A stretch of DNA of 22,215 nucleotides from a virus. Where the stretch lies: the IMG/VR virus record IMGVR_UViG_3300008266_009996, positions 1 to 22,215 of that record; one strand, 5' to 3'. Under the pieces are notes generated by a model. The model saw only the letters and a list, made by a program, of their open reading frames with translations. It made no database searches and was not told the origin of the DNA. Made by a program: the position numbers and the translations under genes. Shown here piece by piece: positions 1,600-17,263 of this stretch (positions are counted from its first letter, which is position 1; each line of letters starts with the position of its first letter).

Positions 1600-3537
1600 A
1601 TGATACATCAAATTTCAATAACAGGAGTAACAGGAACTCCACCATATTCAATATCGGTATGTGATTCAACATACACATATTGTTATTTGGTTACAGGTTC
1701 AACAACAATACCACCAACATTTACTTTTGATGTTCCATCACCTTTAGATGGAGTTAATAATTTAATTGTAAAAATAACTGATTCTACAGGATGCGAATAC
1801 TTTGAACCTTATAGTTGTCCTCCTACACCGACACCAACACCTACTCTAACACCGACACCAACACCTACCCCAACCGATTTGTGTTATTGTTTAATGGCAG
1901 TTAATTCATCCATGATGGATGGTTCGTTTGATTATATAGATTGTGATGGATTATCACAATTAAATATTCATGTCCCAAGTGGAATAACATATTATACTTG
2001 TGGATCTAACCCGACAAACATAATTAATTTATCAATCGGAATAGGTGATTTATGTTCTTTATCCAGTTGTAATCCACCTTTACCTTCATTATCGGCAACA
2101 CCAACTCCTACTCCCACACCTTCGTCATTACCTTTTGCGTTTATTTCAGTTTGGTCGGCATCAACTACAATTGAACTTCCGTATTCACCAACTGGAACTT
2201 ATTCAGGAATAATAGATTGGGGTGATGGTAATACATCTGTTAACTCATATGCAAATAGAACTCATACATATTCGATAACAGGTGATTATACTGTAACAAT
2301 TACAGGTACAATTGAGGGTTGGGATTTTAATAATTATGCGACATCTTATAAAAACAATATAAAAGAAATATTAAGGTGGGGTCCACTAAAAGGAGAATCA
2401 GGTTCAAACAATGGCATGTTCTATGGTTGTCAAAATTTAATTATAACAGGTGTAACAGATACTATTAATTTAATTGGAATAACAAATTTGAGTAGTATGT
2501 TTTTTGGTTGTACTAGTTTAACTACCGTAAATAATATGGATAGTTGGGATGTATCATCTGTTAATAATATGTCGGGTATGTTTACATTGACATCTAATTT
2601 CAATCAACCAATAGGAAGTTGGGATGTTTCAAATGTTACAAATATGGCATCTATGTTCTCGTTATCCACAAACTTTAACCAAAACATCGGAAGTTGGGAT
2701 GTTTCAAACGTTACCAATATGTTGGCTATGTTTTTAGCCGCGGCAAATTTCAATCAACCAATAGGAGGATGGGATGTTTCAAATGTTATCAATATGTCAG
2801 CTATGTTCGCAGGTTCTCAAAATTTCAATCAACCAGTAGGAAGTTGGGATGTTTCAAATGTTACCAATATGTCGTCTATGTTTGGTAATGCAACAAACTT
2901 CAATCAGACAATTGGGGGTTGGGATGTGTCAAATGTTACCAATATGGGTAATATGTTTGGTAATGCAACAAACTTTAACCAAAACATCGGAAGTTGGGAT
3001 GTTTCAAATGTTACCGATATGAATGGTATGTTTTTATCGGCAATAAACTTTAACCAAAACATCGGAAGTTGGGATGTTTCAAATGTTACCGTTATGAATG
3101 GTATGTTTAATAATGCTACAAGTTTTAACAATGGAGGTTCTCCAAGTATAAATTTATGGAATGTTTCAGGTGTGACAAATATGTCATTTACTTTTTATAC
3201 CGCAACAAATTTCAATCAACCAATAGGAGGATGGGACGTATCTAATGTAACAAATATGGAAAATATGTTATCATTGGCAACAGTTTTTGATCAACCAATC
3301 GGAGGATGGGATGTTTCATCAGTAACTAATATGAGTTTTATGTTAAATGGTACGTCATTATCAACACCTAATTATGATTTACTACTCAATGGATGGGCAT
3401 CATTAGGAGGTTCATTACAACCCTCAGTTAATTTTAATGCCGGTACTTCTGTATATACGATTGCAACGGCTGGTGTGAGTAGAAATTATTTGACAGGAAC
3501 CAAGTTATGGAATATAACTGACGGGGGAGGAATTTAA
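1600..3537 (+). CDS. Tail-fibre/adhesin-like protein: PT stalks, PKD-like domain and DUF285 repeats
   Basis: This 645-residue protein is a mosaic surface protein. Residues 1-72 are beta-rich. A Pro-Thr stalk follows (about 73-93), then a Cys-containing domain (94-160) and a second short PT stalk (about 165-177). A PKD-like Ig domain comes next, with the signature IDWGDGNTS near 205-213 and HTYSITGDYTVTI. Residues 313 to about 590 hold roughly eleven 25-residue repeats of the type GSWDVSNVTNMxxMFxxAxNFNQPI. These match DUF285 (PF03382), the BspA-like repeat found in surface proteins of Bacteroidetes and Mycoplasma. No signal peptide is visible, which suits a virion protein rather than a secreted one. 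Adjacent glycan enzymes and the PT stalks suggest a fibre or adhesin that binds the host surface and may be glycosylated. Near-identical DNA repeats suggest recent expansion. The receptor-binding role is inferred. Confidence 0.8.
   Translation: MIHQISITGVTGTPPYSISVCDSTYTYCYLVTGSTTIPPTFTFDVPSPLDGVNNLIVKITDSTGCEYFEPYSCPPTPTPTPTLTPTPTPTPTDLCYCLMAVNSSMMDGSFDYIDCDGLSQLNIHVPSGITYYTCGSNPTNIINLSIGIGDLCSLSSCNPPLPSLSATPTPTPTPSSLPFAFISVWSASTTIELPYSPTGTYSGIIDWGDGNTSVNSYANRTHTYSITGDYTVTITGTIEGWDFNNYATSYKNNIKEILRWGPLKGESGSNNGMFYGCQNLIITGVTDTINLIGITNLSSMFFGCTSLTTVNNMDSWDVSSVNNMSGMFTLTSNFNQPIGSWDVSNVTNMASMFSLSTNFNQNIGSWDVSNVTNMLAMFLAAANFNQPIGGWDVSNVINMSAMFAGSQNFNQPVGSWDVSNVTNMSSMFGNATNFNQTIGGWDVSNVTNMGNMFGNATNFNQNIGSWDVSNVTDMNGMFLSAINFNQNIGSWDVSNVTVMNGMFNNATSFNNGGSPSINLWNVSGVTNMSFTFYTATNFNQPIGGWDVSNVTNMENMLSLATVFDQPIGGWDVSSVTNMSFMLNGTSLSTPNYDLLLNGWASLGGSLQPSVNFNAGTSVYTIATAGVSRNYLTGTKLWNITDGGGI
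2536..3354 (+). repeat. Tandem 75-bp coding repeats (DUF285 units)
   Basis: About eleven tandem units with an exact 75-bp period encode the 25-residue DUF285 repeat. Some blocks are almost identical at DNA level: the segment beginning AACTTTAACCAAAACATCGG occurs at 2671, 2971 and 3046, offsets that are multiples of 75. The eighth unit is lengthened by a few residues (near 3130-3150). Such repeats can expand or contract by recombination or slippage. Confidence 0.9.
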
Positions 3538-3556: not shown

Positions 3557-3585
3557 TTTTTATTTTTTTATTATTAAAATAAAAA
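3557..3585 (+). repeat. A/T-only inverted repeat between fibre gene and glycan cassette
   Basis: TTTTTATTTT (3557-3566) and AAAATAAAAA (3576-3585) are exact reverse complements around a 9-nt loop, directly upstream of the GT60-like start. With no G-C pair it would be a weak terminator or hairpin. It may simply reflect the A-rich leader typical of this genome. Confidence 0.35.
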
Positions 3586-4832
3586 TGAAAATTTTCATCC
3601 AAATCGCTTCTTATAGAGATCCCCAACTTATACCAACAATTAAAGATTGTATTGATAAATCAAAAAAACCTGAAAATTTAAGATTTGGTATTTGTAGACA
3701 ATTTCATCCTGAAGATGGTTTTGATAATTTAACAGAATATGAGAATGATGATAGATTCAGAATTTTAAATATTCCATATCAAGAATCAACAGGCGTGTGT
3801 TGGGCAAGAAACCAAGTACAACAATTATATAAAGGAGAAAAATACACTCTACAGTTAGATTCTCATATGAGATTTGAACAAGATTGGGATGATACTTTAA
3901 TTAAAATGATTAAAGGATTACAAAAGAATGGCTATAAAAAACCATTATTAACTGGTTATGTCTCATCATTTGATCCTGAAAATGATCCTCAAGGTAGGGT
4001 TACCGATCCGTGGAGAATGACATTTGATAGATTTACACCTGAAGGTGTTGTATTCTTTTTACCTGAAGTAATTCCTAATTGGAGGGAATTTAGTGAACCA
4101 ATACCTTCAAGATTTTACTCCGCACATTTTGCATTTACATTAGGGGAGTTTTCTAAAGAAGTTCAACATGATCCTGAATACTATTTTCACGGTGAAGAAA
4201 TTTCAATTGCAGTAAGAGCATACACTCATGGATATGATTTATTTCATCCACATAGAGTTGTTATTTGGCACGAATACACAAGGAAGGGTAGAACTAAACA
4301 ATGGGACGATGATAAAGAGTGGTATAAAAAAAACGAATCTTGTCATAAAAAGAATAGACAAATACTTGGTATTGATGGAGAATCTTATGAAGGGGATTTA
4401 GGTAAATATGGTTTTGGTACCGAAAGGACAATTAGAGATTATGAAAAATATTCAGGTATCCTATTTTCTAAAAGAGCAATACAACAATATACAATAGATA
4501 AAAATTATCCTCCTAATTCATACGATTATGAAACTGAAGAACAATGGTTAGATAGTTTTACAACAATATTCAAACATTGTATTGATATATCATTTGATGG
4601 AGTTCCTGAAAATGATTACGATTTTTGGGTTGTTGCATTTCATAATGAAAAAGATGAAACTTTATTTAGACAAGATGCCGACTCAAACGAAATAAATAGA
4701 ATGATGCAAGATCCTGACAGATACTGTAAAATATGGAGAGAATTCCACACAAAAGAAAAACCTAAGTATTGGGTTGTGTGGCCGTATAGTAAATCAAAAG
4801 GATGGTGTCCAAGATTAACAGGTAATTTATAA
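3585..4832 (+). CDS. GT60-type GlcNAc transferase (Skp1/mucin polypeptide GlcNAc-transferase family)
   Basis: This 415-residue protein matches the GlcNAc-transferase family PF11397 (CAZy GT60). It begins with FIQIASYRDPQL (residues 4-15), has RFGICRQF (33-40) and GVCWARNQVQQLY (70-82), then LQLDSHMRFEQDWD (89-102), whose DSH replaces the metal-binding DxD. HGEEISIAVRAYTHGYD (about 199-215) is the expected acceptor/catalytic region. Characterised relatives add GlcNAc to hydroxyproline of Skp1 in Dictyostelium and to Thr of mucins in Trypanosoma cruzi. A C-terminal extension (about 310-415, Trp/Asp-rich) is not recognised. The gene directly follows two Pro-Thr-rich proteins, so these are plausible acceptors. 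No membrane segment is seen; it would act in the infected cell's cytoplasm. The family call is firm, the acceptor is inference. Confidence 0.85.
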   Translation: MKIFIQIASYRDPQLIPTIKDCIDKSKKPENLRFGICRQFHPEDGFDNLTEYENDDRFRILNIPYQESTGVCWARNQVQQLYKGEKYTLQLDSHMRFEQDWDDTLIKMIKGLQKNGYKKPLLTGYVSSFDPENDPQGRVTDPWRMTFDRFTPEGVVFFLPEVIPNWREFSEPIPSRFYSAHFAFTLGEFSKEVQHDPEYYFHGEEISIAVRAYTHGYDLFHPHRVVIWHEYTRKGRTKQWDDDKEWYKKNESCHKKNRQILGIDGESYEGDLGKYGFGTERTIRDYEKYSGILFSKRAIQQYTIDKNYPPNSYDYETEEQWLDSFTTIFKHCIDISFDGVPENDYDFWVVAFHNEKDETLFRQDADSNEINRMMQDPDRYCKIWREFHTKEKPKYWVVWPYSKSKGWCPRLTGNL

Positions 4833-4837
4833 TTTAT

Positions 4838-5548
4838 ATGGTAACATTTAATGATGTAAAAATAGCTGATGTTGGGTATTATATAAATTTGGATAGTAGG
4901 GTTGACAGAAAAGATAACCTTGAGTCACAGTTTAATAAATTTAACATAAAGGGGGTTAATAGATTTTCGGCATTTTCAAGTTACCCAAGTAATCCCTCAA
5001 ATTGTAAAAAAAGTCATTATCAATTATTTGAATTGTTTTTACAATCAAATTACAATACTATGTTAGTATTAGAAGATGATTGTAAGTTTTTAGATTTTTT
5101 AAAGGATGAGTCAACCGAAATTTTTGATAAAATTTTAAATACTGATTGGGATTTATTTTGGTTAGGATGTAGAAATAGAAAACCACCAAAAAATTATATT
5201 AATAATTGTTATTTTACCTCATCAACTTCCGGAGCTCAATCTTACATTATAACAAAAAGATTTGTTGAGTATCTATTATCTACTTTCCCTATTGAACCTA
5301 ACGATAATTTAAGGAACACATCAATTGATGAACTACTGTGTTTATCAATATATGATATTGATGTGGTTAATAACCCAAATAAATATAATTTTTATAATTT
5401 AGATCAACCTTTAGATAATCTACAAACTAAATTTAAATCATTGTGTTATGAAAAGGCACTTACAACACAATATCTTTCATATAGTGATTTATGGGGTACT
5501 ACTACCGATTTAGAATATTATATGATATCATCACACCCAAAACAATAA
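4838..5548 (+). CDS. Glycosyltransferase family 25-like protein
   Basis: This 236-residue protein has the GT25 (PF01755, lipooligosaccharide biosynthesis) pattern. YYINLDSRVDRKD lies at residues 14-26, CKKSHYQLFE at 56-65 and the metal-binding MLVLEDDCKF at 75-84. Later STSGAQSYIITKRF fits the family's GT-A fold. Members transfer a hexose (often galactose or glucose) from a nucleotide sugar to a glycan or, in the eukaryotic collagen branch, to hydroxylysine. The gene begins 5 nt after the GT60-like gene and is followed 4 nt later by a methyltransferase, so the cassette is almost certainly co-transcribed. It may extend a GlcNAc added by the upstream enzyme. Donor and acceptor cannot be read from sequence. 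Confidence 0.85.
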   Translation: MVTFNDVKIADVGYYINLDSRVDRKDNLESQFNKFNIKGVNRFSAFSSYPSNPSNCKKSHYQLFELFLQSNYNTMLVLEDDCKFLDFLKDESTEIFDKILNTDWDLFWLGCRNRKPPKNYINNCYFTSSTSGAQSYIITKRFVEYLLSTFPIEPNDNLRNTSIDELLCLSIYDIDVVNNPNKYNFYNLDQPLDNLQTKFKSLCYEKALTTQYLSYSDLWGTTTDLEYYMISSHPKQ

Positions 5549-5552
5549 TAAT

Positions 5553-6146
5553 ATGAACGGACACTTTATTTACAAAAATTTAATTATTAGTCAACATCCA
5601 AATGTTGGGGAAAAGTTTAAAACACTTATTGACGAATACAAACCATCAAGAGTTTTAGAAATAGGAACTGCGGATGGCGGATTAACATTATTAATAAGAG
5701 ATTTATTAGATAGTGTGGGATTAACTAATACAATAGTACGAACTTATGATGTTAATGAACAAAAAAATTTAAAGTTAAAAGAAAGAAATATTGAGATAAT
5801 CACAAAAGATGTTTTTAATTATCCATATTCAGATTTAGAATATCCTGATGAAATCAGAGACTTTATACAAAGTAATGGTAAAACTTTAGTTCTTTGCGAT
5901 GGAGGGAGTAAAAAAAATGAATTTAGATTATTATCTCAATTTTTAAAATATGGTGATATTATTATGGCTCACGATTATGCACCAAATGAAAATTATTTTA
6001 ATGAAAATATAAAAGATAAAATATGGAATTGGTTAGAAATACAAGATTTTGATATTAATGAAAGTTGTTTAACTTATAATCTTAAACCATATATGGAAGA
6101 TGAATTTCGTTCTGTTGTATGGGTATGTAAAATAAAAGAACAATGA
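5553..6146 (+). CDS. SAM-dependent class I methyltransferase (CmcI/rhamnosyl O-methyltransferase-like)
   Basis: This 197-residue protein shows a Rossmann methyltransferase core. Motif I VLEIGTADGG lies at residues 34-43, an acidic residue after strand 2 at D66 (TYDV), and VLCDGG at 113-118 followed by a predicted helix and DIIMAHDYA (135-143). The DGGxxKxxE and AHDY pattern resembles the CmcI/rhamnosyl O-methyltransferase group (PF04989), which methylates sugar hydroxyls with metal assistance. Sitting between glycosyltransferases, it probably caps or modifies a glycan; this is context inference. Its TGA stop overlaps the next ATG (ATGA), indicating coupling to the HtrL-GT fusion. Confidence 0.75.
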   Translation: MNGHFIYKNLIISQHPNVGEKFKTLIDEYKPSRVLEIGTADGGLTLLIRDLLDSVGLTNTIVRTYDVNEQKNLKLKERNIEIITKDVFNYPYSDLEYPDEIRDFIQSNGKTLVLCDGGSKKNEFRLLSQFLKYGDIIMAHDYAPNENYFNENIKDKIWNWLEIQDFDINESCLTYNLKPYMEDEFRSVVWVCKIKEQ

Positions 6147-7825
6147 TTACATTAGTAACTGGTTTATGGGATATTGGTAGAGGTGATTTACAGGAAGGTT
6201 GGTCACGATCATATCAACACTATTTAGGTAAGTTTGAAGAACTACTAAAAGTAGATAGTAACCTTATTATTTTTGGTGATAAAGAGTTACAAGATTTTGT
6301 ATCTCAAAGAAGACAGGTTGAAAACACTCAATTTATTTTGAGGGATTTGAATTGGTTTAAAAATAACGAATATTTCCAATTAATACAAACTATACGAACA
6401 AATCCTGATTGGTTTAACCAAGTTGGGTGGTTAAAGGACTCAACTCAATCTAAATTAGAAATGTATAACCCTTTGGTTATGTCTAAAATGTTTTTACTTA
6501 ATGATGCAAAAATTTTAGATAAATTTAATTCAGATAAACTATTTTGGGTTGATGCCGGTTTAAGTAATACCGTACATATGGGTTATTTTACGCATGATAA
6601 AGTTATGGATAAAATAGATAAATTATCTGACAAATTTTTATTTATTTGTTTTCCATATAACGCAGAAACTGAAGTTCATGGATTCAAGTATGAAGAAATG
6701 AAACGATTAACAAACTCAACACCTGATATTGTTGCTCGCGGAGGATTCTTTGGTGGGGATAAGGATTTAATATCACAAATGAATAGTTTGTATTATGGGA
6801 TATTAATTGACACCCTTAAACGAGGTTTTATGGGTACTGAAGAAAGTTTATTTACAATATTAACATACCAATACCCTAACATAATTGATTACTGTGAAAT
6901 AGAATCTAATGGATTAGTTTATAAATTTTTTGAGGATGTTAAAAACAATTTAGTTGTAATAAAAAACTTTGACTCAAAACCAACAATCGTTAAAACTAAT
7001 TTAGAAATTAACTCAAATGGGATTGGTTTATATATTATAACATTTAATTCACCAAATCAATTTGAGACATTAATCCAATCAATGTTGAACTATGATACTG
7101 ATTTTATCACAAGAACCAAAAAGTTTTTACTTGATAATTCAACAGATACATCAACAACCCCAAGGTATTTGGAACTTTGTGAACAATATGGTTTTACTCA
7201 CATAAAAAAAGATAATATTGGTATAACTGGTGGAAGACAATTTATTGCGGAACATTTTAATGAACAAGAAGATTTAGGTTATTATTTCTTCTTTGAGGAC
7301 GATATGTTATTTCACTCAGGTAAAACCGATGTGTGTAAAAATGGTTTTGGTAGGTATGTTAAAAAACTATTTACCAAATCTTTAAACATACTAAAAAGAG
7401 AATCTTTTGATTTCTTAAAATTAAATTTTACAGAATTTTATGGTTCTAATGATAAACAATGGTCTTGGTATAATGTTCCCCAAGATTTTAGACAATCCCA
7501 TTGGCAGAACAATCCAAGGTTACCACAACAAGGGTTGGATCCAAATTCACCAAACACAGAATTCAAATATATTAAATCATTACAGGGGTTACCATATGCG
7601 AGTGGAGAAATCTATTTGTGTAACTGGCCGATTCTAATGTCAAAAGAAGGTAATTATAAGTGTTATTTAAAAACAAAATTTGATCATCCATTTGAACAAA
7701 CTTTAATGTCCCAATGTTTCCAAGAAACCATTAAGGGTAATATCAATCCGGGTTTATTATTAATAACCCCAACTGAACACAATCGTTTCGATCATTATGA
7801 ATCCTCATTAAGAAAAGAATGTTAA
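6143..7825 (+). CDS. Bifunctional HtrL/YibB domain fused to a GT-A glycosyltransferase domain
   Basis: This 560-residue protein has two parts. Residues 1 to about 265 match the HtrL/YibB family (PF09612): ITLVTGLWDIGR at the start, PLVMSKMFLL (110-119), FWVDAGLSN (134-142) and ARGGFFGGD near 200. These are features of a GT-A-like fold of uncertain activity, encoded near lipopolysaccharide genes in enterobacteria. Residues about 290-560 form a second GT-A-like domain: GLYIITFNSPNQFETLIQSM, KFLLDNSTD, a central NIGITGGRQ and FFFEDDM (about 382-388), the last being a candidate metal-binding acidic cluster. Fusion in one polypeptide suggests sequential sugar transfers. It is the last gene of the cassette and is coupled by overlap to the methyltransferase. 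Substrates are unknown. Confidence 0.75.
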   Translation: MITLVTGLWDIGRGDLQEGWSRSYQHYLGKFEELLKVDSNLIIFGDKELQDFVSQRRQVENTQFILRDLNWFKNNEYFQLIQTIRTNPDWFNQVGWLKDSTQSKLEMYNPLVMSKMFLLNDAKILDKFNSDKLFWVDAGLSNTVHMGYFTHDKVMDKIDKLSDKFLFICFPYNAETEVHGFKYEEMKRLTNSTPDIVARGGFFGGDKDLISQMNSLYYGILIDTLKRGFMGTEESLFTILTYQYPNIIDYCEIESNGLVYKFFEDVKNNLVVIKNFDSKPTIVKTNLEINSNGIGLYIITFNSPNQFETLIQSMLNYDTDFITRTKKFLLDNSTDTSTTPRYLELCEQYGFTHIKKDNIGITGGRQFIAEHFNEQEDLGYYFFFEDDMLFHSGKTDVCKNGFGRYVKKLFTKSLNILKRESFDFLKLNFTEFYGSNDKQWSWYNVPQDFRQSHWQNNPRLPQQGLDPNSPNTEFKYIKSLQGLPYASGEIYLCNWPILMSKEGNYKCYLKTKFDHPFEQTLMSQCFQETIKGNINPGLLLITPTEHNRFDHYESSLRKEC

Positions 7826-11304: not shown

Positions 11305-11655
11305 CTTCAACCCATCACTGCTGATAATGTACCAATTTCCCTCAACAAAACTTAAATGAACACAAGCACCTTTTTCAAGTAAAAGTTCATCCCATTCTTC
11401 ATCAATTAAACCAATATCAGGTTTAATTAAAACGGTAGTCAAAGATTTTATGGTTACCGTTTTATTTTTTTCTGAACTTAAAGTAACTTCTGAACTTTCA
11501 ATATCTTTAACAATAACTAAAATTTCTTCATCAACTTGATGTGTCTCTGTTGTTACAATTTTGTCCTCAACAATTTTAGCTGGTGTAGGCGGAATGTGTG
11601 TTCTGTATCTAACCACATTTTTTCTCGGTGAAATATTTTCAATTTTAAAACTCAT
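11296..11655 (-). CDS. Small beta-rich protein of unknown function, last gene of the minus-strand operon
   Basis: I do not recognise this 119-residue protein. It has an N-terminal segment with MSFKIENISPRKNVVRYRT, an acidic middle with many Glu and Val, and a C-terminal stretch GACVHLSFVEGNWYIISSDG. The latter looks like a beta-sandwich or fibre-type fold seen in phage structural proteins. Its start overlaps the stop of the gp13-like gene by 4 nt, so the two are translationally coupled and probably act together, likely in the virion. It converges on the DNA polymerase gene, their ends overlapping by 9 nt with no room for a terminator between them. Confidence 0.5.
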   Translation of the reverse strand: MSFKIENISPRKNVVRYRTHIPPTPAKIVEDKIVTTETHQVDEEILVIVKDIESSEVTLSSEKNKTVTIKSLTTVLIKPDIGLIDEEWDELLLEKGACVHLSFVEGNWYIISSDGLKLN

Positions 11656-12782
11656 ATAACATAAATTTGTCTAGGCATTGCCCTGAACTTTAAAGATTTG
11701 TTAAGATTCTCCGCAAGTAAAGCCTCTCGTTCTAAAACTTTATCAGGTCTTAATCTTGTTAACTTACCTTCAGCCCCTGTTAATTCTTCTATTAGTTTAG
11801 TTTTTTCGTCTTTACCTTCAGTTGCTAATGACTGATAATCCATTGTAAGTTCTGAATCCGGTGTTTTGATATTACCACTAAATTTACCTCTAACTTTTGA
11901 TAGAGTTTCTTTACAACTTGCGATAAACCAATTTCTAACCCAAACTTGTGCGGGATGATTTAAATCAACCCAAGAAAGTTTATCAATCGGAACATCAGAT
12001 GGTAATTTAATAATATCAGGATTATCTTTTAAACATTTGTCTCTACCTCCTTCAGTAGTATCATAGTACCAATACCATACTTTTCCTTTAGTCATTGTTC
12101 CATTACCAAAATCAAACTTACCACCAGGAGTGTTCATTAAATGTATAGCTTTTTTACCACCTGGTAATGCGGTAATTCTATATGTTAAATCACCAGCAAT
12201 AATTCTTCTTTGAATGTTTATTTCTTGCATTCTCAATAACATATCAAAAGCCGGCATCATAAAATATGAACCTGCCATATTACCACCCATTTGTGCGAGA
12301 CCTCCACCTCCACCAAGACCTCCACCATATCCTAATGAACCAAATGACCATGGATCAAACATTGTGTTGTTTAGTGTTGCAGGAGTAAACCATAGTAGTT
12401 CATTAATTTCTCTTCCTTCAGGTATTTCGTATATTTGTTGGTTTTTGACTAATTGGATGTAATCCTTTTTAAGTTCCCACTCTCCACCCGCTTGTAACCC
12501 AACGATTTTAGAATATGCGTATGTGTATCTTGTTTCGTAATCTAAACTTTTTGTTACAAAGGCTCTTGATAACGATTGAGTTTCAAGATTCAAATTCCAT
12601 AAACTTGTCCATTGAGATTCAATCAACCAATCATTAACTTTTTGAGAATACTCATCTATTGAGAATTCAAGAAGGGTATCCATTTGTTCGTCCTCTAATT
12701 CAACACTCCTTAACGGTGCTCCGAGTATGTGTCTAATTTTAGTGTATAATTCACTTCTTTGTGGTTCTGGTATAATTCCCAT
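11652..12782 (-). CDS. Putative neck/head-tail connector protein (gp13-like)
   Basis: This 376-residue protein has no enzyme motifs and looks structural. Its N-terminal helical region (about 8-60, with ILGAPLRSVELEDEQMDTLL and SIDEYSQKVNDWL) is typical of head-tail connector proteins. A central part contains EIPEGREINELLWFTPATLN (119-138), a flexible Gly-rich loop (about 148-171) and FDMLLRMQEI, then LTYRITALPGGKKAIHLMNTPGG, and a C-terminal helical tail. I associate this arrangement with gp13-type neck proteins of marine T4-like phages. The assignment is supported by order: gp14-, gp15- and gp18-like genes follow in sequence downstream on the other strand. A TATTTATA motif precedes the ATG by 14 nt. 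T4 gp13 is shorter (309 residues). Another connector role is possible. Confidence 0.5.
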   Translation of the reverse strand: MGIIPEPQRSELYTKIRHILGAPLRSVELEDEQMDTLLEFSIDEYSQKVNDWLIESQWTSLWNLNLETQSLSRAFVTKSLDYETRYTYAYSKIVGLQAGGEWELKKDYIQLVKNQQIYEIPEGREINELLWFTPATLNNTMFDPWSFGSLGYGGGLGGGGGLAQMGGNMAGSYFMMPAFDMLLRMQEINIQRRIIAGDLTYRITALPGGKKAIHLMNTPGGKFDFGNGTMTKGKVWYWYYDTTEGGRDKCLKDNPDIIKLPSDVPIDKLSWVDLNHPAQVWVRNWFIASCKETLSKVRGKFSGNIKTPDSELTMDYQSLATEGKDEKTKLIEELTGAEGKLTRLRPDKVLEREALLAENLNKSLKFRAMPRQIYVI

Positions 12783-12805: not shown

Positions 12806-13897
12806 TTATTTCTTCATTCTTAATTCGTATAACTCATTGACGAATTCCCAATTAACACAATTCCAAAAGTTTTTAATGTACTGATCCCTCTTGTTTCTGT
12901 ATCTCAAATAATAAGCATGTTCCCAAACATCAAGTCCAAGAAGTGGATAACCACCACCCTCAACAACATTCATTAATGGATTGTCTTGATTTGGGGTTGA
13001 CATAATTTTTAATCTACCTGTTTTAGTTAATACTAACCAAGCCCACCCTGAACCAAATCTATCTAATGCGGTTTTATTAAATTCTTCTTTAAATTTGTTA
13101 AATGAACCGTATTGTTTTTTTATTTTCTCAAAAACAATACCTTTAGGTGTTTGTTTTGTTGGGGATAACATTTTCCAAAATAATGCATGGTTGAAAGCTC
13201 CTCCAGCATTGTTTCTAACTTTAGTATCAAATTTACTAATGGATTTAACAATGTCCTCAAGTTCCATATCACCTTTTCTACTTGATAAAGCGTCGTTTAA
13301 TTTTTTTACATATCCTTTGTAGTGTTTGTTATAATGAATATCCATTGTCTCAGGATCTACAAATTTTTTAATTGCTGAATATGAATAAGGTAATTTCTCA
13401 ATACCTATTTTTTTCATTTCAGTTAAAAACTGTTTTTGGATGTTTTCTTTTTCTTTAAGGACTATCTGTTCTGATATGATATCTAATTTATTGGATATTG
13501 ATTTAAACCCCTCAAATATTGTTTTTTCATAATTTGGATAGTCTTTCTCAAACATTTTAACAATTTGACCCGCAAACGCATTTGCTTCATCTTCATTTTT
13601 CCCACCAATGTCCGGACCTTTATCTCTATCTAAAACTCCGTGTTGATATTCGTGAACCCATTCGTGAGCAAGAGTTCTCATAATATCTCTATTTAATCTA
13701 TTTTTTGCGAGTATCTTTAATATATGTTTGTTAGTCCTACTACCAGTACTCATTTTACCATATCTTTCACCCGTAAAAACTATTTCTATATCATCAACCA
13801 ACGGCAATTTTTTACTTAAGAATTTTATAAAATCCTCAAATAATTTGTAATCTTTTTTTGGGATATCCGATTTAAGATATTTTATTGAAACTTTCAT
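12806..13897 (-). CDS. Fusion of HExxH zinc metallopeptidase and Mn-type superoxide dismutase
   Basis: One uninterrupted frame joins two enzymes. Numbering is from a TTG two codons upstream of the chosen ATG at 13897. Residues 3-130 form a metallopeptidase-like domain: AHEWVHEYQH gives HEWVH (80-84), and NEDEANAFA (103-111) offers the third zinc ligand Glu in the manner of gluzincins. After a helical linker (131-165), residues about 168-365 are a full-length Fe/Mn superoxide dismutase. Predicted metal ligands are H190, H239, D325 and H329 (DVWEHAYY), with active-site H194 and Y198. NNAGGAFNH and NQDNPL (Q306) match manganese-type rather than iron-type enzymes. The SOD part would convert superoxide to peroxide and oxygen. 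ATG is preferred because the TTG lies inside the TATTTATT motif. No signal peptide. It sits between helicase and neck genes. Confidence 0.85.
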   Translation of the reverse strand: MKVSIKYLKSDIPKKDYKLFEDFIKFLSKKLPLVDDIEIVFTGERYGKMSTGSRTNKHILKILAKNRLNRDIMRTLAHEWVHEYQHGVLDRDKGPDIGGKNEDEANAFAGQIVKMFEKDYPNYEKTIFEGFKSISNKLDIISEQIVLKEKENIQKQFLTEMKKIGIEKLPYSYSAIKKFVDPETMDIHYNKHYKGYVKKLNDALSSRKGDMELEDIVKSISKFDTKVRNNAGGAFNHALFWKMLSPTKQTPKGIVFEKIKKQYGSFNKFKEEFNKTALDRFGSGWAWLVLTKTGRLKIMSTPNQDNPLMNVVEGGGYPLLGLDVWEHAYYLRYRNKRDQYIKNFWNCVNWEFVNELYELRMKK

Positions 13898-13901
13898 TAA
13901 C

Positions 13902-13909
13902 AATAAATA
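13902..13909 (-). promoter_or_regulatory. TATTTATT motif upstream of the peptidase-SOD gene
   Basis: On the minus strand this reads TATTTATT, one base off the recurring octamer, only 4 nt before the ATG at 13897. If it acts as a -10 element the transcript would begin at or inside the start codon, so it could be leaderless. It lies in the 22-nt gap after the helicase gene. Confidence 0.35.
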
Positions 13910-13925
13910 TCTTCAAATGAAAGTT

Positions 13926-15689
13926 TTATCTTCTCTTGTTAATTGAATTGAGTATTTCCTCTACAACATCTCCACCATTTTCAAGTAAGTCATCACCCAT
14001 CACGGTATTTATGATTTGTTTTTTTCTAGTAAGAATATCATATATTGCGCCCTCAATTGAGTTATCAAATAATGGGTAATAAACAAGAACATTATTTTTT
14101 TGTCCGTAACGATACGCTCTATCCTCAGCCTGTGCGTGTTCCGCAGGGACAAATGATAAGTCATTCATTATTACCACTTCTGCCGATGTTAATGTTAAAC
14201 CAACACCTGCCGCTTTAAGGTTACCTACAAATACTTTAATTTTTTCATTATCTTGAAACTGATCTACGGCATATTGTCTTTGAGGTTTAGTACAACTACC
14301 ATCCAAGTAAACAGACTGTTTCCCAAAATGATTATGTATCATTTGTAATGTATCCGTAAAATTTGTGAATATGATAACCTTTTTACCTTGTTCAATTATG
14401 TTCTCAACAAATTCAATTGTGTGTTTGATTTTTTCGTTTGCAATAATTTTTCTAACTTTCATCAATTTACTAAACTGAATAGTCAAAGATGATGATTCGT
14501 CAGATTTGTTTTCATACCAATCATAATATTCTCCCATCATTTCTTCGTAGTCTTTAGAAACTAATCTTAGATATATTGGTGAAATAATTTTATCTGGTAA
14601 ATCAAGGACATCTTCTTTCAATCGTCTTAACATCTGTTTTGAAGTCCTGTCTCTTAATTCCTCAAGATTTGATGCTCCTTGTACATTCCATACTTTTCTT
14701 TTCCCTGCCATGAATTGATATCCCTGACAGTATCGGATAGCATAAGCCATCCAATTCTGTGCTACGGGACTTTCGATGATACTCAAAAGATTATAGTAAT
14801 TCATGGGACGAGATGTCATTGGTGTTCCTGTCAACAACCACACTCGTTTAATATCTTTAACGAATGAATTAATAATTTTAGTTCGTTGAGCTTGTGGATT
14901 TGATATCATATGTGCCTCATCCAAAATAACCAAGTCAAAATTTGAATTATGTATGATTGAATTGTCTTTATTTTTTGTATCGTAGAAATTTTTAAGAATG
15001 TCGTAATTAACAATCGTAAAGTCTTCTTCTGTAGAGAATTTTTTACCTTCACTAATATAAACACTACGATCAGTATAATTTTCAATCTCTCGTTGCCAAT
15101 TTATTTTTAATGATGCGGGACATACAATTAAAATTCTTTTTGCACCTGTTTCTAAAGCGGCAATTATTGTGGAAGTTGTTTTACCAAGTCCCATATCATC
15201 CGCAAGAATAAATCTTTTAGAACCAACTAATTTCTCAATCGCTTCTTTTTGGTGGGTAAGTGGTGGTCTATGTTCGTATTTAGAATAATCAATATCAACT
15301 TTCTCTATTGTGTGGGTTTTAATTAATGCGGATTTAGGAACCCAAAATTCAGTTAAATCATCCTTCTCAAAAAATTTACCCCAAATATGATATGACTTTT
15401 CTTTTTCCACTAAAAGTTTCTCAACATAAACAGTTTCAGGAACTTCTAATAGATATTTTTCTTCAGCAAATTTCTTTGCGAAGTATGAATCCAAGTCAAC
15501 CCATTTACGAGCAACTTTTGGTTTTACATCATGATAAGTATTTATATAATCTGATTGTGATCTAGTAGGAAAGAATTTTTTACTCTTTTCTTTTTTAGTT
15601 TTTAAAGATAAAATATAGTTATTCGCACCTGAATATACCTCAAGTACTTCTAATGCTTTTTGCTCTATCGTTTTCGTTAGAATATCCAA
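13926..15689 (-). CDS. SNF2-family DNA helicase/translocase
   Basis: This 587-residue superfamily 2 ATPase has the Q-like entry PPLTHQKEAIEKL (142-154), Walker A DDMGLGKTT (164-172) and CPASLKINW (190-198). The DEAH box is at 257-260 and motif III LLTGTP at 285-290. Motif IV is KVIIFTNF (437-444), motif V GLTLTSAEVVIM (497-508) and motif VI QAEDRAYRYGQ (520-530). MGLGKT and the arginine pair in QAEDRAYRYGQ are typical of SNF2/SMARCAL1-type translocases that remodel forked or annealed DNA; T4 UvsW does a comparable job. The N-terminal 140 residues are not recognised. The first codon is TTG (15689-15687); no better in-frame ATG is seen near it and no Shine-Dalgarno is present, so the start is uncertain. 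It heads the minus-strand operon and lacks a clear TATTTATA motif. Confidence 0.9.
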   Translation of the reverse strand: MDILTKTIEQKALEVLEVYSGANNYILSLKTKKEKSKKFFPTRSQSDYINTYHDVKPKVARKWVDLDSYFAKKFAEEKYLLEVPETVYVEKLLVEKEKSYHIWGKFFEKDDLTEFWVPKSALIKTHTIEKVDIDYSKYEHRPPLTHQKEAIEKLVGSKRFILADDMGLGKTTSTIIAALETGAKRILIVCPASLKINWQREIENYTDRSVYISEGKKFSTEEDFTIVNYDILKNFYDTKNKDNSIIHNSNFDLVILDEAHMISNPQAQRTKIINSFVKDIKRVWLLTGTPMTSRPMNYYNLLSIIESPVAQNWMAYAIRYCQGYQFMAGKRKVWNVQGASNLEELRDRTSKQMLRRLKEDVLDLPDKIISPIYLRLVSKDYEEMMGEYYDWYENKSDESSSLTIQFSKLMKVRKIIANEKIKHTIEFVENIIEQGKKVIIFTNFTDTLQMIHNHFGKQSVYLDGSCTKPQRQYAVDQFQDNEKIKVFVGNLKAAGVGLTLTSAEVVIMNDLSFVPAEHAQAEDRAYRYGQKNNVLVYYPLFDNSIEGAIYDILTRKKQIINTVMGDDLLENGGDVVEEILNSINKRR

Positions 15690-15749: not shown

Positions 15750-16262
15750 ATGTCAAATAAAGTACCTATTACAAGACTGGGTAAGTTTTTCGGAGAAAAT
15801 GATTTTAACCTTGATATCTCAATGGGAGAAGAATGGTTAGTCGGGGATATGAACTTTACTTGTGTTCTTTATCGTATTGATAGATATAAAACAAAAACTG
15901 ATGATGTTTATGGTGAGACTGTTGAGGACGGAATTAAATTCTTACCTCCTGTTGAGTTCAATGCGTTTGTACAAGTATCGGCACCTGAAAATAAAATGAT
16001 GGGAACTACAAGAATTGATCAGATGGAACCTGGTAATATTAGAGTGTCTGTTTATCAAAAAACATTAGATGATTTGGAAATTGATATAAATTTTGGTGAT
16101 TATATAGGTTACTATGAAAGTGAAACTTTGGTTAGATATTATACGGTTAATAACGATGGTCGTGTAGTTTCTGATAATAAACATACATACGGTGGGTATA
16201 AACCTTTTTATCGTACAATATCGGCATCTCCTGTTGGACCTAATGAATTTAGAGGATTATGA
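15750..16262 (+). CDS. Putative neck/head-closure protein (gp14-like)
   Basis: This 170-residue protein is predicted to be mostly beta strands with no catalytic motif. It has a YGETVEDGIKFLPPVEFNAF segment (about 54-73) followed by EPGNIRVSVYQKTLDDLEID, then INFGDYIGYYESETLVRYYT. The last pattern, in which a GDYI or GDYV hairpin precedes an aromatic-rich strand, recalls small head-closure and neck proteins. The position between gp13-like and gp15-like genes supports a gp14 counterpart, though T4 gp14 is larger (256 residues). Its TGA stop overlaps the next ATG (ATGA), coupling it to the nuclease-like gene. A candidate late motif precedes it. Confidence 0.5.
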   Translation: MSNKVPITRLGKFFGENDFNLDISMGEEWLVGDMNFTCVLYRIDRYKTKTDDVYGETVEDGIKFLPPVEFNAFVQVSAPENKMMGTTRIDQMEPGNIRVSVYQKTLDDLEIDINFGDYIGYYESETLVRYYTVNNDGRVVSDNKHTYGGYKPFYRTISASPVGPNEFRGL

Positions 16263-17263
16263 GAAAAATGAAAATAATGTTGTCTGAGTCACAATATTTT
16301 AAAGTGATGAGGTTAGTGAATGAAGAAGAAGAAATTGATATCATTGATGAACCAACAAAATATACTTATTTGAGTGTGAATCCTTGGCAGAAAGGAACTA
16401 CCAAAAAATATTTTTTTAATAAGGTAAGATCAGTACCTGATAAATCACCAATACCAGGAAAAATTAAATTGGTTGGTAACCGTGGGGAGTTTATTTTCAA
16501 TAAAAGTGATTTAAGATTTAATGTTGAAAAAGAAACCATAAGTGTTGATCAATGGTTATTAGATAAAGATTTTAATTTGGGGGAAGGCGCTAATGAACCT
16601 CAAAATATGGGAATTACTCCGAATAATATTAGAAAGGCATTGAGTTTGGCGTTTCCTAATAATTGGATGTCTGAGGATGATATATATAGTGCGGGTTTAA
16701 GAGGTGTTTACACTATTGGTGATAAAATTAATGATCAAACAGAAGATTGGTCTATTATGAATTATTTTGATACCAAGCCCGAAATTCATGATTTGATATT
16801 TTTAAGATATAAAGAACAAGACAGTAATGAAGATATTATTGATTGGATGATAAATTTATTTAAAAATGATGATGCATTCACACAACTTTTAGTTGATAGA
16901 CAATGGCAGTCAATTGAAAATGGGTTAAAATTAGAGAGGGATTCCGTTAAATACCTTTTAACCAAACTTAAAAGTGCTTCTATTACTTTTTATCCTCACG
17001 GTTCTAAAATGGATAGATGGTACGGTATTGATGTAACAATTAACGGGATTAATTGTCAAGTTAAACCATTAACATCATATTTTGAAAAAGATGGAGTTTA
17101 TACCGTTTATACTTACGGTATGAGAGATTATTCATCTAAAAAAATGGTAAATAAAATAATTTTTGCAAATAATAAAGAAATACTAATATTTGATAATAAA
17201 AATTATTCTGTTAACTCAAGATCAAAAGCAACTTTTAATGAACAACCAAAAATAGTAAAATAA
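16259..17263 (+). CDS. Unknown protein with a candidate PD-(D/E)xK-type nuclease core
   Basis: I do not recognise this 334-residue protein as a named family. The first 24 residues (MKIMLSESQYFKVMRLVNEE, beginning at residue 4) form an amphipathic peptide. In my recollection similar LSESQ/LTEEQ openings occur in other phage proteins. Residues about 30-110 are beta-rich and 115-215 mainly helical. The end holds LERDSVKYLL (225-234), then YGIDVTINGINCQVKPL (255-271). This gives the spacing of a PD-(D/E)xK nuclease core: E226 on helix A, D258, and Q267-x-K269. Conserved Trp and Tyr surround it. It might cut DNA during packaging or processing. It is coupled to the gp14-like gene and ends 1 nt before the next ATG, so a structural or assembly role is equally possible. 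Confidence 0.45.
   Translation: MRKMKIMLSESQYFKVMRLVNEEEEIDIIDEPTKYTYLSVNPWQKGTTKKYFFNKVRSVPDKSPIPGKIKLVGNRGEFIFNKSDLRFNVEKETISVDQWLLDKDFNLGEGANEPQNMGITPNNIRKALSLAFPNNWMSEDDIYSAGLRGVYTIGDKINDQTEDWSIMNYFDTKPEIHDLIFLRYKEQDSNEDIIDWMINLFKNDDAFTQLLVDRQWQSIENGLKLERDSVKYLLTKLKSASITFYPHGSKMDRWYGIDVTINGINCQVKPLTSYFEKDGVYTVYTYGMRDYSSKKMVNKIIFANNKEILIFDNKNYSVNSRSKATFNEQPKIVK

Follow-up and report, generated by a model that had tools for sequence, protein, structure and literature searches.

The viral DNA analysed here (referred to as the window: the whole 22,215-nt stretch of IMG/VR record IMGVR_UViG_3300008266_009996) contains a gene, P0001, in which a metallopeptidase and a manganese-type superoxide dismutase (SOD) are encoded in a single open reading frame, and this peptidase-SOD fusion is real and conserved. 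Judged by sequence, the joints between its parts look like sites at which the head-assembly protease of the phage itself would cut, and a C-terminal module forms a third, exchangeable part of most fused relatives. Our best reading of P0001 is a late, head-packaged, protease-cut multi-enzyme protein; packaging, cleavage and the enzymatic activities are what we infer, and we give this reading a probability of about one half (0.52).

The fusion gene and its relatives

The P0001 frame opens with an ATG at 13897 on the minus strand and its stop codon ends at 12806, which gives a protein of 363 residues. The features of the window used below are as follows, with the basis of each assignment in brackets.

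12806..13897, minus strand: peptidase-SOD fusion gene P0001, 363 aa (single open frame and 100% identical relatives)
13544..13897, minus strand: zincin-type metallopeptidase domain, aa 1-118 (model, fold match, conservation)
13652..13666, minus strand: HEWVH, aa 78-82, predicted zinc site (alignment)
13586..13594, minus strand: E102-D-E104 of EDEAN, candidate third zinc ligand (alignment)
13400..13543, minus strand: variable linker, aa 119-166, in which [LI]xE ends at E129, E143, E149 and E160 (sequence and model)
12827..13399, minus strand: Fe/Mn SOD domain, Mn-type, aa 167-357 (Pfam, NCBIfam, residues, fold)
13898..13911, minus strand: GATATTTATTGTTA, immediately before the ATG, containing a variant of the promoter-like TATTTATT at -12 (motif scan)
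11652..12782, minus strand: neck or head-tail-adaptor-like gene, 376 aa, next downstream (PHROG)
13926..15689, minus strand: SNF2 helicase, next upstream, TTG start (Pfam and PHROGs)
16259..17263, plus strand: stand-alone gene with the start MRKMKIMLSESQYF..RLVNEEEE (27% identity over 255 aa to a C-terminal module that other phages have fused to the SOD)

A preliminary description of this DNA had proposed one phage frame with an HEWVH peptidase followed by a complete SOD, and both halves bore this out. Pfam searches placed residues 167-355 in Sod_Fe_N (9.6e-21) and Sod_Fe_C (1.1e-41), with 74.5 and 141.5 bits against cut-offs of 27 and 20.9 (PF00081/PF02777), and the top NCBIfam match was to 'superoxide dismutase [Mn]' (1.2e-59), at 201.6 bits under the equivalog cut-off of 363. 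The four metal ligands (H188, H237, D323 and H327), the second-shell His and Tyr (H192 and Y196) and the Mn-type Gly/Gln pattern (G232/G233 and Q304) are present as had been claimed, and we take these residues to correspond to those of E. coli MnSOD; together with HEWVH and E102/E104 they were invariant in a 27-sequence alignment. Among 119 distinct SOD-bearing sequences, a set selected on DxWEHxYY, this motif, GGxxNH and NQDNP were each found in all 119, HYxKHYxGY in 118 (the exception being L004) and NNAGG or NNGGG in 117. A Foldseek search with the SOD model superposed it on the Sphingobacterium sp. T2 MnSOD (6gsc_A; E 1.1e-21, rmsd 1.5, 46% identity); residues 129-169 of the SOD-containing model had pLDDT values below 50.

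The peptidase half was assigned at the level of fold, and on the evidence of its model it is a zincin. The AlphaFold2 model of residues 1-128 had a pLDDT of 93.4, contained the zincin core fold, and in VIA-align matched zincins such as AQ_1354 (Z 9.9), M1 aminopeptidase cores (up to 9.5) and Wss1 (8.5). Foldseek gave no match to this model with E < 0.001 (the best, an M61 peptidase, was at 4.7e-3), and a peptidase profile run against PDB sequences found only weak matches (best 0.059). Pfam searches with the first 157 residues returned metallopeptidase matches that were all sub-threshold; for family M78 (IrrE/ImmA, PF06114) the N-terminal part of P0001 scored 13 bits against a cut-off of 22, and 8 of 45 peptidase relatives matched this model at E up to 0.01 (best 5.1e-7). 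At the same threshold 29 of the 45 matched PHROG 87 'metallo-protease', which the P0001 domain did not, its sole match being PHROG 16532 (function not annotated). P0001 has HExxH (H78, E79 and H82) with conserved downstream glutamates at 102 and 104, one of which is likely to be the third zinc ligand. R67, D71, T75, L76, H78, E79, H82, Q85, G98, E102, E104, A105, N106 and A109 were invariant in the 45 relatives, which were found through part of those motifs. HEW[VI]H occurred in 108 of 108 fused sequences with HExxH at residue 77-79, a count that tells the form of the motif only, as the set was selected on HExxH. Both active sites are intact by their residues, the SOD is very probably active, and the peptidase is quite probably active as well.

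That no described protein has this architecture, as the preliminary description had put it, agrees with our searches. P0001 matched 28 of 50,697 phage records, every match beginning at residue 147 or beyond, and none of the 28 covered 80% of the protein. The peptidase part alone matched a single phage record, from cyanophage B23 (E 6e-5), and the full-length protein matched no PHROGs family at E up to 0.01. Neither an architecture of this type nor a phage SOD in virions appeared among the titles and abstract openings that literature searches, mostly of open-access papers, brought up. Phage SODs, zincins in polyvalent proteins and capsid-targeting propeptides are each known separately; titles, abstract openings and PHROGs suggest that what is new is the fusion combined with prohead-protease-like joints and exchangeable modules.

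Three contigs (118, 130 and 304 kb), each from a different dataset other than the window's, carry copies of P0001 that are 100% identical over the full length. In a viral-contig scan with the fusion protein, the best 80 of 315 relatives all encode HEW[VI]H and the SOD in a single frame; the copy L004 has an internal deletion, is 36 residues shorter and lacks a piece of the SOD that includes the first ligand motif. Among the best 80 of 396 relatives of the peptidase part were one peptidase alone (L152) and one frame that breaks within the SOD (L139). Pooling three scans and the window gave the 119 distinct sequences with an SOD, of which 108 are fused and 11 have the SOD alone; distinct here means non-identical and some differ merely by a contig end. 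At the C-terminus, 35 of the 108 fused proteins stop soon after the SOD, as P0001 does, 71 have an extension of at least 40 aa, and in 2 the SOD end is missing where the contig ends. In other phages the SOD or the peptidase occurs alone.

SOD regions were extracted from 118 of the 119 sequences (L004 was dropped), and with near copies removed the tree comprised 75 rows: 50 fused, 8 SOD-only and 17 bacterial. The fused rows formed a single clade (support 97/89) with long branches at some joins, and all 58 phage rows grouped together apart from the bacterial ones (95/76). The bacterial loci came from a GTDB scan with two short SOD patterns, which gave 19 loci, the nearest being Sphingobacterium SODs (54%); none of the 18 that were read was fused, and the tree singled out no bacterial donor. 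Two loci, L181 and L189 (frame not read), were left out of the trees. L181, on a contig of a 'Fluviicola' MAG (JAJTEO010000009.1) with an SOD that starts MNLKIVDILREG, was kept out because its SOD is 100% identical to that of L282 on a 222-kb viral contig, and it is probably a phage contig inside a bacterial MAG. G009, the phage contig on which L282 stands as an SOD gene of its own, also has a separate 233-aa peptidase gene elsewhere (L368, start MKKNKNIKELISEISV); a separate peptidase match in G010 with no readable frame (L367) was left out.

An artefact that joined two neighbouring genes can practically be dismissed. The odd copies (the broken frame, the internal deletion and the lone peptidase) speak for it; 108 distinct fused sequences, three identical contig copies and one supported clade rule out an assembly or sequencing error. 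The same search for the fusion in related contigs answered the case that the preliminary description had named as refuting it: an arrangement in which a stop divides the two halves into genes of their own was not found as a rule.

Joints and tag-like N-termini

The linker (aa 119-166) has pLDDT values mostly under 50. In 105 of the 108 fused sequences (3 were skipped), [LI]xE occurred at 7.45 per 100 aa in the linker compared with 0.67 in the peptidase and 0.57 in the SOD, more than ten times the density of either domain; shuffled linkers gave 4.36 per 100 aa (the largest of 500 being 5.07), so that the excess over its own shuffles is 1.7-fold. Since E, K, I and L abound in the linker, part of which is predicted to be helical, much of the [LI]xE excess is a matter of composition.

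Behind the SOD, all 77 sequences with a matched SOD end and an extension of at least 40 aa (58 of 58 distinct junctions) have [LIV]xE within 28 aa after that end; the controls gave 35% for windows placed at random farther on and 54% for shuffled sequence. A narrower motif picked after viewing the data, [LI][NKTSR]E[SN], was found in 63 of the 77 (46 of 58 distinct junctions), with 1.7% in random windows and 5.3% in shuffles. Extended SOD-only proteins, which have no peptidase, keep the junction [LIV]xE in 6 of 6 cases and the narrower motif in 3 of 6. In addition, all SOD-only genes except L282 and L294 begin with a stretch that ends like the linker (e.g., FFITEMRKIGIEKLPY and KFFITEMRKIGIEKLPY); the linker may therefore once have been the N-terminus of a stand-alone SOD gene. 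These linker-like starts and the third exchangeable module in most fused relatives, both read from sequence, go beyond the preliminary description.

By BLAST the C-terminal extensions fell into clusters of 49, 24 and 3 sequences. The largest is a mixture of several types, and 25 of its 49 members match open reading frames (ORFs) of the 304-kb contig, including stand-alone ones with tag-like starts (62% identity over 85 aa, 33% over 120 aa and 27% over 255 aa, this last ORF being the contig's counterpart of the window gene at 16259..17263); no ORF of that contig matched the other two clusters. The gene at 16259..17263 gave a weak, sub-threshold match to an MjaI endonuclease model. No C-terminal module matched a Pfam family above cut-off; several perhaps carry an [E/Q]xK nuclease-like motif, as read by eye.

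Phage T4 offers a precedent for cutting at such motifs: its prohead protease gp21 cleaves after L/I-X-E, and its internal proteins are targeted to the capsid by short N-terminal propeptides (both described in PMC9026906). The 304-kb contig with the identical P0001 encodes a gp21-type protease (PF03420, 3.0e-23), a family found in 4 of 8 related contigs whose completeness is not established, as well as a gp23-like capsid protein (6e-25), in which LINEATSEG occurs close to the N-terminus, ahead of the part that aligns with T4 gp23. P0001 itself starts MKVSIKYLKSD, with no N-terminal propeptide ending in [LI]xE, and its first [LIV]xE, at 19, lies within a helix of the model; targeting would therefore need the linker or another signal.

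Many peptidase relatives do have tag-like starts. In a scan led by the cyanophage B23 protein we read 79 of the best 80 of 539 relatives; none of the 79 has the SOD motif, and they stand alone or are joined to other domains. [LI]xE lies within the first 16 residues of 50 of these 79, divided into 31 of 34 proteins no longer than 160 aa (MKTFVEFLTES is one such start), 1 of 18 members of a 161-195 aa subgroup and 18 of 27 of the rest; the 160-aa cut favours the tag reading, for which the figure over the whole set is the 50 of 79. In later windows of equal length the short relatives had [LI]xE in a mean of 3.4 and a maximum of 8 of 34. Several members of the 161-195 aa subgroup (which includes L217, L218 and L225) have INES or YNES near the C-terminus. 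Six relatives (L271, L274, L275, L222, L262 and L263) lie inside longer proteins, some of more than 1000 aa, and the N-terminus of some of these reads by eye as nucleotidyltransferase-like.

A motif chosen after the tags had been seen, [LI][NKTSR]E[SNEQKG], occurred in the first 30 residues of 63 of the 332 ORFs of at least 80 aa on the 304-kb contig, compared with 18 in the middle and 16 in the last 30 residues; the loose [LIV]xE was hardly enriched at starts (170, 132 and 160, respectively). Examples in G001 (the record of L003) are the ORFs at 13668-13964, 46421-47200 and 60294-60620, and frequent forms of the tag are MKKVIRLTESDLTRIVKRVINE, MKELIRHILKEE, MNLQENIRRILREE and MKIIITESQ. The 63 tagged ORFs of G001 are perhaps a genome-wide set of head-targeted proteins. 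We infer from these patterns that the tags would be capsid-targeting signals and that the joints would be cut.

Neighbouring genes and a promoter-like motif

The preliminary description had placed P0001 in an operon with a neck-like gene, behind a sequence motif. The next gene downstream matched PHROG 'head-tail adaptor Ad2' (1.1e-9, over 60 of 376 residues), and TATTTATA begins 22 bases before it. The helicase upstream is presumably UvsW-like. Over 240 loci, many of them on shared contigs, a helicase match was present at 237 and the neck gene at 213, and in loci without the peptidase the helicase lies beside the SOD in 16 of 17, L282 being the exception.

On the 304-kb contig, 50 of the 365 ORFs have TATTTATA upstream, where 3.7 would be expected from its density in the genome. 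The form TATTTAT[AT] lies at -12 relative to the fusion gene and at -22 relative to the neck gene, and it also precedes the prohead-protease gene, the sheath gene and a gene read by eye as terminase-like. It is absent before the DNA polymerase and helicase genes (60 bases before the TTG in the latter case), and also from the 60 bases before the portal, scaffold and capsid-protein genes and an ORF for a 2319-aa tail protein. It precedes 23 of 63 tagged and 59 of 269 untagged ORFs (Fisher p 0.022). This distribution is in keeping with a late promoter and does not prove one. In G001, 83 ORFs have TATTTAT[AT] within 60 bases of the start; the motif begins 20-24 bases before the start codon in 32 of them and 10-14 bases before it in 23. 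Transcripts of the latter class, to which the fusion gene belongs, could be leaderless or nearly so.

Elsewhere in the window, positions 1600-3537 encode a 645-aa protein with many FNQPIGSWDVSNVTNMSGMF-like repeats, which we take to be BspA-like; a PTPTPT-rich protein (1052-1546) adjoins it, and the run of genes at 3585-7825 reads by eye like glycosyltransferases and a methyltransferase.

Proposed role and known systems

The joints are dense in [LI]xE and a protease of the matching type is encoded, and therefore the protein may be packed in the particle and delivered to the cell. The fusion precursor would be made late and enter the prohead core, where the gp21-type protease would cut the joints after [LI]xE, freeing a small zinc peptidase, the Mn-SOD and, in relatives, a third module; ejection of the DNA would then carry these domains along. 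Inside the next cell the peptidase would cleave host proteins or complete the processing of the precursor, and the SOD would clear the superoxide to which infection or sunlit water gives rise, thereby shielding the incoming genome and the cell until lysis. That the protein is packaged and cut seems to us somewhat better than an even chance from its sequence, and we give even odds that the SOD has been selected for protection against oxidation. The whole chain of a late precursor, cuts at gp21 sites in the prohead, and a peptidase, an Mn-SOD and an exchangeable module (some modules perhaps being nucleases) delivered with the DNA is put forward tentatively. The preliminary description had gone as far as a protein that could be made late and even packaged; for packaging, [LI]xE at the joints and the tag-like N-termini of many peptidase relatives speak, with the limit that such tags are not on all relatives.

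We favour a packaged payload over a plain intracellular auxiliary enzyme, in which a cytoplasmic Mn-SOD would guard the cell and DNA replication, the peptidase would be a house-keeping partner and nothing would be packaged. Freshwater phages with SOD and other ROS genes have been read in terms of such host protection (PMC6802176, PMC12542629), and the SOD here has been retained at one locus with its catalytic residues kept; however, it would be left unexplained why [LI]xE stands at each of the two joints, why modules are exchanged after the SOD and why many peptidase relatives have tag-like N-termini, and we consider this account rather unlikely. Improbable to a greater degree is a self-processing polyvalent protein, which shares packaging with our best reading and differs in that the zincin and not a gp21-type protease would do the cutting, with the SOD and modules as cargo. 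Among the peptidases of polyvalent proteins zincins are the most frequent, and a role in releasing other domains has been proposed for them (PMC5512222); the fused proteins, moreover, have their peptidase ahead of the SOD. Against this, the joints fit the gp21 motif, extended SOD-only proteins keep the junction motif though they have no peptidase, and the short stand-alone peptidases carry little to process.

Very doubtful is a structural use, in which an oligomeric SOD fold would cluster peptidase domains at the neck or head and dismutase activity would be irrelevant. Fe/Mn SODs are oligomers, and the fusion gene adjoins the neck gene; the SOD residues are nevertheless kept in 117-119 of 119 sequences, by motif, and in some phages this locus holds an SOD with no peptidase. 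An inert scaffold is disfavoured by the retained catalytic residues. The preliminary description held for a real, conserved phage fusion with an Mn-type SOD, both sites intact by sequence and a promoter-like motif shared with some virion genes; its suggestion that the SOD is a mere targeting or oligomerisation unit was not supported.

If the packaged payload is correct, phage-delivered redox control becomes directly testable: a packaged Fe/Mn SOD would blunt superoxide at the start of infection, and payloads would be built in modular fashion from tagged genes. [LI]xE tags and joints would then amount to a sequence rule that predicts head cargo across a large set of T4-like jumbo phages from fresh water, represented here by contigs alone, and cargo would evolve by joining tagged genes end to end, with tags becoming protease sites between domains.

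Among known systems, the bacterial MnSODs (Sphingobacterium sp. T2, PDB 6gsc and 5a9g) share the metal ligands and second shell with P0001, whose SOD, in contrast, is phage-borne and lies behind a peptidase and linker, with a third module in many relatives. The SODs of freshwater phages have been interpreted as metabolic or host-protecting genes (PMC6802176). Pseudomonas phage PA5oct and relatives likewise have an Fe/Mn SOD in a jumbo phage; the PA5oct gene (EST35_0261) is separate and small, however, and its product a distant homolog, 27% identical over residues 159-358. The depositor's note on EST35_0261 gives ESI-MS/MS with the MS sample unnamed, and the same note stands on one structural and one baseplate protein of PA5oct. 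A particle-borne SOD or SOD-like protein, as proposed here for P0001, has counterparts in PBCV-1, whose SOD A245R is made late and packaged (cells infected with it had less superoxide than cells infected with a virus lacking the gene; PMC7019647), and in vaccinia, in which A45 (A45R) is a lateral-body candidate (PMC9282662); these differ in belonging to the Cu/Zn and not the Fe/Mn family and to viruses that are not phages, and the passages describing them mention no peptidase.

Polyvalent proteins with a zincin MPTase domain (PMC5512222) are likewise multi-domain, with an HExxH...E zincin beside enzymatic cargo, and plausibly packaged and injected. P0001 differs in being small and in having joints that fit gp21 sites. 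What might count as polyvalent-type content is a peptidase and an SOD in P0001 and an extension of at least 40 aa in 71 of the 108 fused sequences; the word 'superoxide' has 0 occurrences in the main text of that paper. With the T4 internal proteins and Alt, which have capsid-targeting sequences cut by gp21 (PMC9026906), the likeness lies in the many stand-alone peptidase relatives whose short tags end in [LI]xE and in a gp21-type protease encoded on the 304-kb contig, whereas P0001 itself has no N-terminal tag and carries its sites between the domains.
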